NCBI GenBank assembly: GCA_938029995.1
Contig: CALHGI010000379.1
Span: 1 to 10,492, forward strand
From: an uncultured cyanobacterium
GTDB taxonomy: Bacteria > Cyanobacteriota > Cyanobacteriia > Phormidesmidales > Phormidesmidaceae
Direction of reading: 5' to 3'
DNA length: 10,492 nucleotides
How positions within the stretch are numbered: position 1 is the first letter of the stretch; every line of letters starts with the position of its first letter. The position numbers were made by a program, and so were the translations under genes. The notes beneath the pieces were generated by a model, which searched no databases, was not told the origin of the DNA, and was given only the letters and a program-made list of their open reading frames with translations. Below, in pieces: positions 4,045-9,127 of this stretch.

Positions 4045-4740
4045 TTACTCAGTTGGAGGACCCCACAGGTCTGCCAACCGCTGATCGCGTCCACAGCCAA
4101 ACCGATAGACCCGATAACGCGCTGGATGGGTTTGATAATAATTTTGGTGATAGTCCTCCGCTGGGTAAAACGCGGCGGCTGGCAGAATATCCGTTGCAAT
4201 GGGCTGAGTAAACAGGTCAGCCACTGACTGTTTAGAGTCGTCAGCGAGCTGGCGCTGGGCGTCATCATGATAAAAAACAATGGAGCGATACTGACTACCC
4301 TGGTCACAAAATTGACCTCGTCCGTCCAAGGGGTCTACATTGTGCCAGAACGTATCCAATAGGGTTTTGTAGCTGACCAACTCGGTGTCATACTCTATCT
4401 GCACTACCTCTGCATGGCCTGTCGTTCCTGAAGAGACCTGGCGGTAGCTAGGAAACTCTACTGTGCCCCCCATATAGCCCGATGTGGTGGATAGAACCCC
4501 TGGTAACTCATCAAAGGGATGCTCCATACACCAAAAACACCCCCCAGCAAACGTGGCTTGAGCCTGGGCCGCCATGGCGGTGGTGGGAGCCATCAAGCAG
4601 AAGCCTAGGGCCATCAGCACGCTAATGATGATTTGCTTTCTGGGCCGCCCTAGGTCGATAAATGTGAAAAAGTTTTGCTTTCTGGGCCACCCTAGGCCGA
4701 TAAATTTAAAGAAACTGCCGGTAGAAGTTGCCAAATTCAC
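4045..4740 (-). CDS. msrA: Peptide-methionine (S)-S-oxide reductase with export signal
   Basis: This enzyme reduces methionine-S-sulfoxide in proteins using thioredoxin or a similar donor. The catalytic motif GGCFWCMEHPF is at residues 66-76 (nucleophile Cys68). It is followed by LPGVLSTTSGYMGG, TGHAEVVQIEYD, FWHNVDPLDGRGQFCDQGSQYRS and a C-terminal YRFGCGRD whose Cys is a candidate resolving residue. Ahead of the core is a signal peptide: RPRKQ, then a hydrophobic stretch IIISVLMALGFCLMAP ending TAMA, a good cleavage site at about residue 57. The enzyme is therefore probably periplasmic or in the thylakoid lumen. The n-region before it is odd: residues 12-39 are two copies of a 14-residue unit (FIGLGWPRKQ / FIDLGRPRKQ). 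The start is GTG 4740 with AGGGA about ten bases upstream. The gene begins 13 bases after the stop of a small membrane protein gene, suggesting an operon. Confidence 0.92.
   Translation of the reverse strand: MNLATSTGSFFKFIGLGWPRKQNFFTFIDLGRPRKQIIISVLMALGFCLMAPTTAMAAQAQATFAGGCFWCMEHPFDELPGVLSTTSGYMGGTVEFPSYRQVSSGTTGHAEVVQIEYDTELVSYKTLLDTFWHNVDPLDGRGQFCDQGSQYRSIVFYHDDAQRQLADDSKQSVADLFTQPIATDILPAAAFYPAEDYHQNYYQTHPARYRVYRFGCGRDQRLADLWGPPTE
4632..4715. repeat. In-frame tandem duplication (2 x 42 bases) in the msrA leader
   Basis: Units 4632-4673 and 4674-4715 agree at 35 of 42 positions, with the first 28 bases nearly identical. Each contains TTTGCTTTCTGGGCC and a CCTAGG hexamer. The period is exactly 14 codons, so the frame is kept and MsrA gains an extra basic block ahead of its signal peptide. 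Confidence 0.85.
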
Positions 4741-4753
4741 TGGTTAGAAATCC

Positions 4754-4855
4754 CTATATCCAAGGCAATACAAAGGCTCCTAGGCCAAAGGACAAAGCCG
4801 CTAGCAGCCAATAGTCTATGTATCGCTTGATTATAGGGCTTATTCGATGGCCCAT
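4754..4855 (-). CDS. Small single-helix membrane protein (33 residues), upstream of msrA
   Basis: A 34-codon frame begins MGHRISPIIKRYIDY and continues with the hydrophobic stretch WLLAALSFGLGAFVLPWI to the stop. It has a short basic N-terminus and one transmembrane helix, so a cytoplasm-in N-terminus is predicted. AGAGGAGA lies eight bases before the ATG, one of the best ribosome sites in the window. A possible promoter is about 40 bases upstream, and msrA starts 13 bases after the stop. It does not match the small photosystem or cytochrome subunits I can recall (PetL, PetN, PsbX, PsbY, CydX). The function is unknown; the pairing suggests a role with exported MsrA or membrane oxidative stress. 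Evidence is the ribosome site, composition and spacing, not homology. Confidence 0.6.
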   Translation of the reverse strand: MGHRISPIIKRYIDYWLLAALSFGLGAFVLPWI

Positions 4856-4862
4856 AGTTAGA

Positions 4863-4870
4863 TCTCCTCT
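4863..4870 (-). promoter_or_regulatory. Strong Shine-Dalgarno site for the small membrane protein
   Basis: AGAGGAGA on the minus strand precedes ATG 4855 by about eight bases. Most genes in this window have weak or no such site, which makes this one stand out and supports the short frame as a real gene. Confidence 0.6.
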
Positions 4871-4891
4871 CTCCGTGGCTAGCCGACCTCG

Positions 4892-4919
4892 ATTGTCGCA
4901 GGTTGTAGAAACCTTGCAA
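4892..4919 (-). promoter_or_regulatory. Possible promoter of the small membrane protein-msrA operon
   Basis: On the minus strand TTGCAA (4919-4914) and GACAAT (4897-4892) are 16 bases apart, each matching four of six consensus positions. Transcription would start near 4885, giving a leader of about 30 bases. The match is moderate, and the support is mainly its position. Confidence 0.35.
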
Positions 4920-4962
4920 ACACAGTTTCAGGGTTCACCAATTTTTCATAACATTCAGCCCC

Positions 4963-5511
4963 CTATGGGGTTTGTCCGGTTAATGGTGGTGAGTGTGTGA
5001 TGATAGTGCCCGATGTCATTAGATTAGCTAATTGGGTGACGGAGATTTGACTGAGTTTAGACTGGGGATGGTGCTGATTAAAGTCGAGAATCTGAGACGT
5101 AATGGCTAATCGTTCTACTCCTTTTTTACCCAATTTTTGGGGTAATAGTGGCTTGATACCCAGGCCAGAGGTGGAAATCATCTGGTGAGAGCTTAACTGC
5201 TCGGTACTGTTAGAGGCCGCCTTAGTCTGCCAAGATACGGATAACTGGTGACGCACCAATGAGACCGTCATCCCCGCCATCATCGCCAGGGGTAATAGGA
5301 CAGCGATACCTCGGGTTTGCCACCGCTGGTAGGTGATAACGCGTTGACTGACATGGATAAATCTTTGGGCCAGGGTGGATAGGTCCTCTCCATGGGCCTG
5401 TAAAAACCGCTCGATGTCTTTAATGTATTGTTGACCTAAGAGGTATTCCGGACATTTGAGTTCTCCCCGTTGGCGCCATATCCAGGCTCGATCTTCAAGA
5501 TCCCATATTTA
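4963..5511 (-). pseudogene. Severed C-terminal part of the caspase-nSTAND gene
   Basis: Directly after the TGA that ends the caspase-nSTAND frame comes a second stop (TAA). The same frame then stays open for 181 codons to TAG at 4963. It begins DLEDRAWIWRQRGE and goes on LKCPEYLLGQQYIKDIERFL, then DLSTLAQRFIHVSQ. This is the sequence that normally continues after the LRQWL element of nSTAND1 proteins. A transmembrane helix follows (about 5310-5254, GIAVLLPLAMMAGMTVSLV). The last 86 or so residues are Ser/Gln/Leu-rich and not recognised. No ATG, GTG or TTG with a ribosome site occurs near its beginning; the first in-frame ATG is at 5283, at the helix. It therefore looks like the lost tail of the upstream gene, not a separate one. 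Readthrough across two stops is possible in principle but unlikely. Confidence 0.7.
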
Positions 5512-7599
5512 TCACAAAGTGGTTTGGCTGGTTTCTAACCACTGACGCAGGAGGCTCCAATCTGATACCAATGACTTATGGGCCAAGGTAATCGTTTCCT
5601 CTACTTTTTTCGTTGGAGTGGGGCTATGGGGCACTAACCAGTGTTGAATATCGGTTGTTGTTTGACCTTGTGTTTCCCAGACCGTTCCGACCATGGGCTG
5701 ATTCCCGACCTGGGGAGTTAAGTTAGGTTGATCGATGACTAGAAGACCGGCTGCGACTAGTTTCTGCAGCGTTCGGTCAATTAGATGTTGGGGAAACCTT
5801 TGATTGATTAATTCGCATTTGTGAATTTGACGACATTGGTCCAATCGACCCTCACCGACATCGCAGAGGGCGAGAAATATGCGTTGAGCTGCGTTTTGCT
5901 CCTCCTCTGGCAAGGACTCATACAGATCCGTTGCACGATCCGTTAACAGGGTCGATATGCGCCCTAATTTCATATAGCTATCTAAGGATAAATAGGGGCC
6001 ACCTTTGCCATAGGCTGCTGGGGAACGATGTTGCCATAACTCATGGAGGGTGTTTTGCAGTAATGCCAGTTCACCGGGTGCTCCAGTGAGGTCTAGGGTG
6101 AGATTGTGTATTAAATAGGGATCGATGGTGAGGCCTAATTTTTCAGCTGGTTTTTCAATCACATCGCGAATGTCTTGATAACGCATGGGAGTGATGACAA
6201 CTCGATTGTTTTTGATTAAAGAGAACAGCTCGCTATGGGTAATTAGGCTACTTAGGGCATTGGAACGTAGACCCACGATGATGCCTAGGTTCAATGCGGG
6301 ATGGTTCAATGCGGTGACTAATGCCTGAATGATGTCTGTTCGTTCTTGATTTAATTGAGGGTCAGGCGTGGGGGTTAGGAGTTCTTCAAACTGATCGATG
6401 ATGATCCACAACTTGTCAGCATTGGGATGTTGGATTAGGGCCGCTGTCACTAAGTTGACTAAGCCCTCTGGTCCATGGCGTAGCAGTCGTTCTGCCTGTA
6501 ATAATTGCTGGGCGATTTCTGTTTCTTGTTGCCCTAGGGCAAAAGCCGCTGCTAGGTTTTTGAACGGTTGCATACCTGGTATGACATAGCGTACTAGCCA
6601 ATTTTCACTGCCTAGAATGTCGTTCCCTGCGGCTAGGCGTGGCATGATACCGGCTCTTAACAAGGATGTTTTGCCACTGCCTGAGGCACCTATTAGGGCA
6701 CAAATATTGGTTTGTTCTAATTTTTGAAGAAATTCTTGGGCGAGGTTTTCTCTCCCAAAGTAGTAGTCAGCATGTTTTTCTTCGAATGGTTGGGGGCCAA
6801 GGTAGGGGCAAAAGTTAAAGCTGTACTGTTTTAGACGCGAAATGAGTGAGATGTTTTCTAACTTGGGTAAAGAGGATGCTGCCTGACGGGTAATGACAAT
6901 TTCACTTCCCCCTTGTTCAAAGAGAGGTTGTTGAATTTCATGGCTGAGTTGATTGGTAATGGCAGCCACGAGGTCAGTGCTGGTCACTCGCCCATTGTCA
7001 GTCTGTTGAGGTCGTAAACTCGATAAGATGGCTTGGGTGAGAACACTGTAGTCACTACTCAAGGATTCATAGGCCTCTTCATATTCGCGGGATGCTGCTA
7101 TGAATAGGTAGCTTTGACCATCACTGCCTTGCCATGCCTCATCTTTTAAAGAGAGAAACTCCCCGCTGTGGCAACAGTCTAAAATAATGATGATCTGGCG
7201 AACTGGACTATGCTTGATCAGACGGCGTAGCCACGACAGGGAGATGCCACTGTTAGAGGTGTTGGGTTGAGTGTCACTGGTGGCTAAATATCCTTCCCGG
7301 AGACCCACTTCTCGCTGTAGACCATGGCCTGAGAAATAGAAAAAGACCGCTTCAGGCACATGGTCGCCTTTGGGCAATAAAAGACGTACTAGACTATTTT
7401 CAAGCTGTTGAGTTGAAACGGGTGTCTGTTGCCCGATTTTCGGTCTTTGCTTGTCAATGATTTCAGGCAGCCGACGCACGCGGAAGTCGCCGTCAGTTTC
7501 CAGGATGTTGGCAACGCCTTCGGCATCTTGGGCTGCCGCGTTGAGTCTTGGCAGGTTTTGATACTGATTAATTCCTACAATTAGTGCATCTCGTGCCAT
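5512..7599 (-). CDS. Caspase-like protease fused to an nSTAND ATPase, truncated by in-frame stops
   Basis: The product from ATG 7599 is 695 residues. Residues 1-235 form a peptidase C14 (orthocaspase/metacaspase-like) domain: MARDALIVGINQYQNLP, FFYFSGHG with the catalytic His92, and IIIILDCCHSGEF with the catalytic Cys143. The nSTAND1 hallmark CPYLGPQPFEEKHAD-YYFGRE follows at about 264-284, then Walker A GASGSGKTS (304-312, Lys310) and Walker B LWIIIDQFEELL (Asp402). A winged-helix-like region ends in LAHKSLVSDWSLLRQWL. Both catalytic and both nucleotide motifs are intact. Known relatives are NTP-controlled signalling and conflict proteins in which the ATPase gates the protease. A typical member would continue into the tail at 4963-5511, which carries a membrane helix. 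I preferred ATG 7599 (AGGA ten bases upstream) over the in-frame TTG at 7605. A 12-base unit repeated with a 15-base period (6288-6314) encodes ALNHP-ALNLG. No HIP1 site occurs in the gene. Confidence 0.9.
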   Translation of the reverse strand: MARDALIVGINQYQNLPRLNAAAQDAEGVANILETDGDFRVRRLPEIIDKQRPKIGQQTPVSTQQLENSLVRLLLPKGDHVPEAVFFYFSGHGLQREVGLREGYLATSDTQPNTSNSGISLSWLRRLIKHSPVRQIIIILDCCHSGEFLSLKDEAWQGSDGQSYLFIAASREYEEAYESLSSDYSVLTQAILSSLRPQQTDNGRVTSTDLVAAITNQLSHEIQQPLFEQGGSEIVITRQAASSLPKLENISLISRLKQYSFNFCPYLGPQPFEEKHADYYFGRENLAQEFLQKLEQTNICALIGASGSGKTSLLRAGIMPRLAAGNDILGSENWLVRYVIPGMQPFKNLAAAFALGQQETEIAQQLLQAERLLRHGPEGLVNLVTAALIQHPNADKLWIIIDQFEELLTPTPDPQLNQERTDIIQALVTALNHPALNLGIIVGLRSNALSSLITHSELFSLIKNNRVVITPMRYQDIRDVIEKPAEKLGLTIDPYLIHNLTLDLTGAPGELALLQNTLHELWQHRSPAAYGKGGPYLSLDSYMKLGRISTLLTDRATDLYESLPEEEQNAAQRIFLALCDVGEGRLDQCRQIHKCELINQRFPQHLIDRTLQKLVAAGLLVIDQPNLTPQVGNQPMVGTVWETQGQTTTDIQHWLVPHSPTPTKKVEETITLAHKSLVSDWSLLRQWLETSQTTL

Positions 7600-7679
7600 G
7601 ACCAATATATCCTGTTCGACATTTAGGCGATCTCAACATTTTCTGTGGAAAAAGTTAGATGACTCCTGGCTTTGTTCTT

Positions 7680-7697
7680 CTATCTCTTCTGAGATAG
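7680..7697. repeat. Hairpin in the caspase leader region
   Basis: Perfect seven-base arms CTATCTC and GAGATAG enclose TTCT, 81 bases upstream of the caspase ATG. It could form in the mRNA leader. Confidence 0.45.
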
Positions 7698-7771
7698 CGG
7701 AATAAGTTTAGAGAGTACTTAACTTGAAAATAGAAATCTTTTCTAAGACCACTTCATAGAGCTGTATAACG

Positions 7772-7808
7772 ACTTATCAAAATTTGTAATTATAGAGTTT
7801 TGGTAAGT
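7772..7808. promoter_or_regulatory. Long inverted repeat around a TATAAT box upstream of the caspase gene
   Basis: Eleven-base arms ACTTATCAAAA (7772-7782) and TTTTGGTAAGT (7798-7808) pair with one T-G wobble. The spacer contains, on the minus strand, a perfect TATAAT (7794-7789). No good -35 lies 16-18 bases upstream, so promoter activity would depend on an activator or a -10-only mechanism. A dyad centred on a -10 box is a plausible operator of the caspase gene; its leader would be about 180 bases. Confidence 0.4.
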
Positions 7809-7849
7809 GATCCTGTTGCCATATTCAACATATAAAAGTTTTTGCGGAG

Positions 7850-7945
7850 ATGCGAGGGGGTGAAACCCTTGATAGACAAGCATCAAGAGGACTTAATGTA
7901 TTCGTGTTGGCGAGCTATCCATATATTTTCGTAGAAATGGATTAA
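7850..7945 (+). CDS. Possible 31-residue peptide gene ending at a hairpin
   Basis: The ATG at 7850 opens a 32-codon frame: a basic N-terminal half (MRGGETLDRQASRG) and a hydrophobic C-terminal half (LNVFVLASYPYIFVEMD). A TATAAA lies at 7831-7836, but without a good -35, and GGAG sits almost on the start codon, too close for an ideal ribosome site. The TAA falls inside the left arm of the 13-base-pair hairpin at 7941. The stretch may equally be a short noncoding RNA of about 130 bases, or neither. Homology is unknown and this is a weak call. Confidence 0.2.
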   Translation: MRGGETLDRQASRGLNVFVLASYPYIFVEMD

Positions 7946-7972
7946 GCCATCAAACATGGTTGATGGCTTAAT
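7941..7972. terminator. Strong 13-base-pair hairpin, terminator-like
   Basis: Perfect arms ATTAAGCCATCAA (7941-7953) and TTGATGGCTTAAT (7960-7972) enclose ACATGG. AT pairs at the base and a GC core resemble an intrinsic terminator, but the following bases are only TTGG on the plus strand. It would end a short plus-strand transcript or block leftward readthrough into the caspase gene. Confidence 0.5.
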
Positions 7973-8038
7973 TTGGACAATCTGTATATGCACTCGATCT
8001 ATCAATCAAAGTCACTCAGAGAAATCAGTGTTTTTAGG

Positions 8039-8069
8039 GTTTGTTTTGTTCTCCATGAACAAAACAAAC
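8039..8069. repeat. Perfect 13-base-pair AT-rich hairpin
   Basis: Arms GTTTGTTTTGTTC (8039-8051) and GAACAAAACAAAC (8057-8069) enclose TCCAT. A T-run of six lies at 8083-8088, 13 bases further, too far for a standard terminator. It could belong to an RNA structure, a recombination site or a small mobile-element remnant. Confidence 0.7.
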
Positions 8070-8094
8070 GTGCTAATTAATATTTTTTGATTAG

Positions 8095-8114
8095 TATCAG
8101 CCAATTGGCTGATA
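8095..8114. repeat. Perfect 20-base palindrome, copy 1 of a repeated core
   Basis: TATCAGCCAATTGGCTGATA is fully self-complementary with no spacer. Its core CAGCCAATTGGCTGAT recurs at 8181-8196. Uninterrupted palindromes suit a dimeric DNA-binding protein better than an RNA hairpin. Confidence 0.75.
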
Positions 8115-8180
8115 TTGGTCCAGAAATCCGTCTGTGATTGTACTGAAATTTGAGCTGTGATGCTTCCGTGATGACCGTTA

Positions 8181-8196
8181 CAGCCAATTGGCTGAT
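8181..8196. repeat. Copy 2 of the palindromic core
   Basis: CAGCCAATTGGCTGAT repeats the core of copy 1 exactly; its first 14 bases are a perfect palindrome. The two sites start 83 bases apart, about eight helical turns, so proteins bound at both would face nearly the same side of the DNA. Confidence 0.75.
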
Positions 8197-8582
8197 GGGA
8201 GTTTTACTGACCCGTTGAGGTAAAGCTTGGCATGCTTAGTATTGCGTAGGGTGTGATTCTGTTGTGTCAATAATGTTGCTTTATTGCTTGAAATTATGTA
8301 GAGATTTACGTCTGCTGCATTTAGTCACTTGTGTGTTTCTACGGTTACATCTAGGTGTATTTCTCTTGGGGTTTACCGTAGTTGAGAGGTTTTGCACTGA
8401 GAAAAGGGTGATTTATCTGAGATTGATGGATGCCTTAGGCGGTGGTGTTTGCACTCGATACTTAAAAATTCAGGTTTAAGGCAGCGTTAGTTCTAGCGTT
8501 TTGAGTTCTGCATGGGGCTGATCACGATGATCCCTTCTGGTGGCTGTGGTTCAGCATTACTTCATCTGATCTGATCGATAGT

Positions 8583-8611
8583 GCTTTGTTTCCTGTGGTG
8601 AGGAACAAAGC
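8583..8611. repeat. 11-base-pair hairpin with one bulged T
   Basis: GCTTTGTT-T-CCT (8583-8594) pairs with AGGAACAAAGC (8601-8611) around a six-base loop GTGGTG. No T-run follows. The bulge suggests an RNA structure or an older, slightly decayed repeat. Confidence 0.5.
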
Positions 8612-9003
8612 GGCGCAACAAATTTTCTATGGATATAACGACAATGCATAGGAGGATGGAGTTCAAGGAGATGTTTGAATAACAGGGGTTATTAGAGTTT
8701 GGCTGGGCTGTGATTGGGTAGTTGGCATAGAGCTAAATCGATGGCTTGTTTGACCGGTTATGGCACATGAATTTTCGGCACTAGCCAATCTTGTAGATGT
8801 CTAGGTAGTATGCTTTGCTAAAAAATCTAGATCTGGGAACTTCAGGGGCATATCTTCTTCAGGACTAGGATGTTTGAAAATTTCGAGAGCTGATGAGTCT
8901 AATTGCTATGGCAGCTGAAGAGCTTTGACTCAGCATGGGTTGTAGCGCTTGTAGCACATGGCTCAGCTATTGGTGATCGAATGCTTTAGGGAATAGCGGC
9001 TAT

Positions 9004-9061
9004 GGATGCAGTAACTGACTGAATGCATCCCATCAGTTGCTATGGCTCAGCTTCTGATGGG
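9004..9061 (+). promoter_or_regulatory. Overlapping hairpins upstream of the TPR-like gene
   Basis: GGATGCA (9004-9010) pairs with TGCATCC (9024-9030). CCCATCAG (9029-9036) pairs with CTGATGGG (9054-9061). A third pairing, AACTGA (9013-9018) with TCAGTT (9033-9038), would compete with both. The structures lie 67 bases before the start codon and could be a folding switch or attenuator, but no ligand or leader peptide is evident. Confidence 0.35.
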
Positions 9062-9127
9062 GTTGGGATAAGGGGACGCCCTGACTATTGATTGAAATTA
9101 CATATTCACTATTAAGGTAAATTTCAT

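Follow-up and report, generated by a model that had tools for sequence, protein, structure and literature searches.

What does it mean when the gene for a conserved protease is closed, in one genome, by two adjacent in-frame stop codons, and the reading frame runs on undisturbed behind them? The gene in question lies on the minus strand at 7599-4963 of the window, by which we mean the whole 10,492-nucleotide stretch analyzed here, one entire contig of a draft genome of 3,744,046 bases in 733 contigs that is 70.3% complete. Reading from the ATG at 7599, which is the start methionine common to the aligned orthologues, 695 codons (5515..7599, minus strand) encode a caspase (C14) domain, an nSTAND1 NTPase and a helical part, as assigned by Pfam and the frame. 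Codon 696 is then a TGA (5512..5514) in frame with that ATG, and codon 697, directly adjoining it, is a TAA (5509..5511). There follows an open tail of 181 codons (698-878; 4966..5508, minus strand), homologous to the C-terminal region that intact orthologues carry, up to the final stop of the frame, a TAG at 4965-4963. A first-pass annotation of this DNA had described the two stops as interrupting one frame with no shift, and both the frame reading and the orthologue alignment agree with it.

The part before the stops has two recognizable domains. The caspase-like Peptidase_C14 domain (PF00656; 6916..7587, minus strand) scores 62.7 bits against a cut-off of 21.4, and its SGHG and DCCHSG motifs, which we take to carry the catalytic His and Cys, are intact: S90, G91, H92, G93 and D141, C142, C143, H144, S145, G146 are invariant in all 30 rows of our alignment. 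The nSTAND1 domain (PF20703; 5515..6807, minus strand) scores 287.9 bits against a cut-off of 27.1, and the translated frame contains GASGSGKTS, presumably the P-loop, and IIIDQFEEL, presumably the other nucleotide motif. That all these motifs survive upstream of the stops had been noted at first pass, and it holds. The position of the stops relative to nSTAND1 has to be revised. They had been placed past that domain, and instead they cut into its end: before the stops the match covers 1-356 of the 379 profile positions, and with the tail included (5461-6807) it covers 1-375, so that the product ahead of the stops lacks the C-terminal end of the module. The tail searched alone against Pfam matched no family. 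It contains a predicted transmembrane helix, residues 764-782 (GIAVLLPLAMMAGMTVSLV; 5254..5310, minus strand), with a mean hydropathy of 2.08 in a 19-residue window; by that window 96 residues follow the helix, rather than the 86 or so first proposed.

The openness of the tail is not due to chance, because 181 open codons in random sequence of the tail's composition have P ~2e-4, the remaining five frames of the same stretch have 8-18 stops apiece, and the tail aligns with the orthologues. The same gene is present in all eight genomes of the genus that we examined, the window's included, and in the 7/7 others it is full-length and has no stops. These seven orthologues (L033-L039, including L035 from Adonisia turfae CCMR0081 and L036 from Leptolyngbya sp. 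PCC 7375), as well as the nearest protein homologue, P0003 from Leptothoe sp. PORK10 BA2 at 80% identity, have the domain set and order of the window gene. The seven differ from it in having no stops, a length of 853-903 residues, and the membrane helix and tail in place. The neighbors, which we take to be an MsrA-like gene on one side and a gene for a TPR-like protein on the other, are the same on both sides in 6/6 same-genus relatives with sufficient flank, and for that reason we regard the window gene as their orthologue; in the seventh relative (L034), whose contig ends close by, the MsrA-like gene is in its usual position.

A protein search extends this comparison. It gave 1587 hits, of which we used the best 120; leaving out the window's own product, 119 homologues remain. 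For the alignment we took the 29 closest (P0003-P0031, with P0018 and P0020 near-identical), excluding the window's short product P0002 and a partial record, P0032. All 29 read through the site and have downstream of it a 19-mer of hydropathy above 1.6. Among the 119 from the best 120 hits, none ends at the stop site and every one extends at least 19 residues beyond it; 103 of the 119 have, after the site, a stretch whose mean hydropathy reaches 1.6 or more, and 16, including one partial record, stay below. Had the orthologues all shared this end, the notion of a truncation would have fallen, and this was not what we found. Because the relatives are all uninterrupted and no homologue among those best hits ends at the site, we read both stops as private to this genome and derived. 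The pattern is that of a nonsense-truncated gene, with stops absent from the orthologues at the same place and a tail homologous to theirs.

The change at the site is tightly clustered. Where the window has stop, stop and Ile at codons 696-698, the 29 homologues have at the first Arg in 22, Lys in 4 and Tyr in 3, at the second Gln in 27 and His in 2, and at the third Gln in 16, Arg in 12 and Ser in 1. Residue 699 is Arg in 29/29 homologues and Trp in the window, and a few codons earlier residue 692, Arg in 27/29, is Gln. Compared as DNA with L033, the nearest relative compared in this way, the four-codon patch (stop, stop, Ile, Trp; 5503..5514, minus strand) differs at 6 of 12 bases, and the 11 bases directly after it are identical. 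Supposing that the second stop arose on its own as a neutral hit, it would have fallen on the very next codon with a chance of about 1 in 85 (84 other single changes make a stop in the tail), and because of these odds the patch suggests one complex event, or an artifact, in preference to two separate hits. Template switching or other local copying, tried as a source of the patch, was set aside: the window contains no second copy of any sequence of at least 11 bases from around it.

Could the organism then lack the stops altogether, the patch being an error of local assembly or of the consensus, or else the allele of a minor strain? A draft as fragmented and incomplete as this one invites the suspicion. 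Six differences in twelve bases followed by identical sequence would be odd for point mutations, and the short form P0002 is known from a single contig (2 member sequences, 1 contig). Against such an error, no local template is seen within the window, and the stops come without any frameshift, which is the more usual assembly error. We also surveyed the draft for similar breaks, in a non-random sample of 60 of the 733 contigs (330,248 bases): 20 numbered beside the window's contig, 37 spread across the numbering, and 3 chosen for earlier hits. These contain 11 pairs of open reading frames in the same frame, of which 5 were scanned with Pfam and 6 judged by eye, and in none of the 5 scanned pairs is a family common to both sides. 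Pairs 1 and 4 are plainly separate genes (a 4Fe-4S protein beside NADH chain 6; an MnmA-like tRNA methyl transferase beside an ATP-sulfurylase). Pair 2, an AMP-binding plus carrier protein beside a condensation domain (NRPS parts), and pair 3, MbhD/MnhB, could in principle each be one split protein, and pair 5 is a solute-binding protein beside a stretch without any family. At the loci of the seven relatives, in 77,245 bases chosen around the caspase-nSTAND1 gene, there are no such pairs. Thus the draft is not full of breaks of this kind, and a few may exist. We consider an artifact or a minor-strain allele unlikely, and still the most serious competitor to a real truncation.

If the truncation is real, how old is it? 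On a fixed tree, the window branch takes 0.0259 of the total tree length in the body of the gene and 0.0263 in the tail, with column bootstraps of 0.0212-0.0298 (30 replicates) and 0.0193-0.0378 (60 replicates), respectively. The comparison of tail and body that the first-pass annotation had called for therefore gives no acceleration of the tail. The stretch 692-720 stands out with a share of 0.0558, because of the clustered changes. The nonsynonymous difference between the window and L033 amounts to 0.129 over codons 700-780 vs. 0.142 over the body, and seven pairs that do not involve the window have 0.162-0.228 over both stretches. For the same window-L033 pair, pN/pS is 0.21 in the body, vs. 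0.22-0.28 in seven other pairs, and 0.34 in codons 700-878, from which a neutral tail would be expected to gain amino-acid changes about three times faster. Because the tail on the window branch has no excess of amino-acid change relative to the body, these substitution patterns point to a recent truncation; as a rough inference, the tail would have been free of constraint for at most about a quarter of the window branch, and that is an upper limit. The dating is coarse, since the synonymous difference between the window and L033 in the body (pS 0.69) is near saturation. The computed probability of the tail staying open is about 0.57 at 0.02 neutral substitutions per site and 0.06 at about 0.1, and thus the openness by itself is compatible with neutral divergence as high as the latter level.

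The gene as a whole also gives a slight hint of relaxed constraint. Relative to the P0003 branch, the window branch is 2.1 times as long for the body and 1.4 times as long for the tail. Where columns are conserved to 70% or more, the window has 17 changes of its own and P0003 has 5; a faster rate across the whole genome would look alike. With these few events, window-only and P0003-only changes at conserved columns give no contrast between body and tail (Fisher P 0.46-0.58).

An open tail had been taken at first pass as a sign either of recency or of continued translation, and the two fare differently: the unaccelerated tail agrees with the former, and the site itself speaks against the latter. 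Stop readthrough or recoding would give a full-length protein and would account for a tail that is open and conserved to the same degree as in relatives. It would also need passage of two consecutive different stops, next to a Trp in place of the invariant Arg-699, in a position where no examined relative carries stops; a search of the window for Rfam RNA elements, at the stops or upstream, gave none, and recency explains the open tail already, at the first of the two substitution levels just given. We regard readthrough as highly improbable. Equally improbable, in our estimate, is that the gene has become two, with the tail translated from a start of its own. ATG codons do occur in the tail, from 5283, and the proteins they would start begin inside the membrane helix, after 75 tail codons; no ATG, GTG or TTG precedes the first of them in the tail, and a simple consensus scan of the minus strand at 4740-5700 found no sigma-70-like site. 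A separate tail gene with its own start, which would have undone the idea of a truncation, is thus not what the tail looks like.

To see what the stops would remove, we used a structure predicted for the orthologue P0004 (mean pLDDT 77.1, pTM 0.54), whose numbering at the site matches that of the window. The stop site falls within a helix, 692-711. In terms of this model, the truncated product would keep the caspase and NTPase parts along with the helices as far as 690. It would lose most of helix 692-711, then two short helices and a long one (742-785) containing the membrane segment, and finally the C-terminal part, where the prediction is poor in places. As the nSTAND1 module loses its end as well, the model implies that truncation does more than detach a soluble half from a membrane half. 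No solved structure is related by sequence at E 0.001. Structure comparison of the model returned MALT1 and yeast metacaspase for the caspase part, and Orc1/Cdc6-like and archaeal ATPases for the NTPase part; the TM-scores, taken over the full model, are 0.16-0.24.

These losses bear on the suggestion that the stops are a selected release, the short soluble caspase-nSTAND1 being a useful product freed from membrane control. Its intact motifs and a constraint on the body near that of other pairs would fit such a product, and two adjacent stops make a tight end. Set against this, the cut inside helix 692-711 strips the last part of the nSTAND1 profile, none of the 119 homologues described above ends at the site, and the case would be built on one sequence. 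In eubacteria, moreover, there is reported to be no evidence of selection favoring extra stops (PMC6764699, title). Finding nothing positive for a selected release, we hold it to be quite unlikely. Its more specific form, a soluble caspase-ATPase that arose from a single complex mutation in one lineage and is kept because freedom from the membrane alters its trigger, seems to us more doubtful still.

A private and recent nonsense truncation of a conserved gene, one of the possibilities raised at first pass, is in our view the best reading and probably the correct one, given the absence of the stops from the seven other same-genus genomes and a tail that evolves no faster than the body. The gene is the orthologue found throughout the genus, whose protein has a C-terminal membrane helix, at its usual locus, and in this one draft genome a tightly local change has produced the two adjacent stop codons. 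Translation would terminate past residue 695, and the product would keep the protease and NTPase core but lack the last helix of nSTAND1, together with the membrane helix and the C-terminal tail. The tail would be untranslated, and intact solely owing to the youth of the event. Most likely this would be an early step of gene loss, or a loss of regulation. The body has no clear decay, its motifs being intact and its pN/pS in line with other pairs, which would be expected if the event is recent and likewise if the short form works; some residual soluble activity of the predicted 695-residue product is possible. The case looks like an ordinary nonsense event private to a single draft genome, and not a new mechanism. 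And an allele without the membrane helix would be a natural test of whether these caspase switches require it.

The setting in the genus makes the truncation mildly notable. Caspase-domain matches number 3 in the window's genome and 13, 4, 13, 14, 5, 4 and 8 in G001 to G007, in that order. The window's genome, G002 and G006 have one nSTAND1 match each above 250 bits, in each case the orthologue, and for the window's genome that single match has to be read with its 70% completeness in mind; the other five have 4-7, counted in four of them from 89 of their candidates scored. The orthologue is intact in G002 and G006 although it is the sole strong nSTAND1 match there, which suggests that it matters. 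Some strains of the genus are associated with sponges and have reduced genomes, and two published reduced genomes are reported to have fewer pseudogenes than others of the genus, which counts against a nonsense truncation as the explanation (PMC8225149, in excerpt). In another genus of the family a homologous caspase-nSTAND copy appears to be split in two, its first piece containing a TGA (G022:C582:7086-8902), so broken copies of such genes occur elsewhere.

As to function, STAND NTPases and caspase domains are parts of proposed conflict or defense systems of multicellular bacteria (PMC7159879, PMC8195603, PMC10907252, all in excerpt), and by analogy the intact protein would act as a caspase tethered to the membrane, with its NTPase as the switch. 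The nSTAND1 and EACC1 conflict systems likewise combine a caspase domain and a STAND NTPase, and nSTAND1 is said to be present in EACC1 systems at times (PMC8195603, PMC7159879, in excerpt). The window protein differs from these in falling below the cut-off of the caspase_w_EACC1 model (NCBIfam NF047832; 95.6 bits vs. 140), and its match to the PADLOC 'caspase' model (2.4e-18) is a domain match only. Among the cyanobacterial architectures in the published excerpts, the closest are a caspase-AAA-transmembrane protein of Acaryochloris marina and a caspase with a C-terminal helix in seven cyanobacterial species; unlike those, the window gene has its C-terminal helix cut off by stops, and its NTPase is nSTAND1 by Pfam. 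Among the papers listed, no title or opening lines of an abstract described a truncated gene of this kind.

Upstream of the gene, the window has about 1.5 kb of low-GC DNA poor in open reading frames (7606-9127, minus strand). Within it a block at 7821-7870 (GGGTTTCACCCC...CCGCAAAAACTT), some 220-270 bases ahead of the start codon, is strongly conserved in the window and six aligned relatives. It has no match in Rfam, and it may be a promoter, a leader or a small RNA. Further out, a palindrome, CAGCCAATTGGCTG, occurs in two copies 83 bases apart (8096-8113 and 8181-8196), the copy nearer the gene being partly conserved in relatives, and an inverted repeat with 16-base arms lies at 7941-7972; the palindrome copies and the inverted repeat are possible operator sites.
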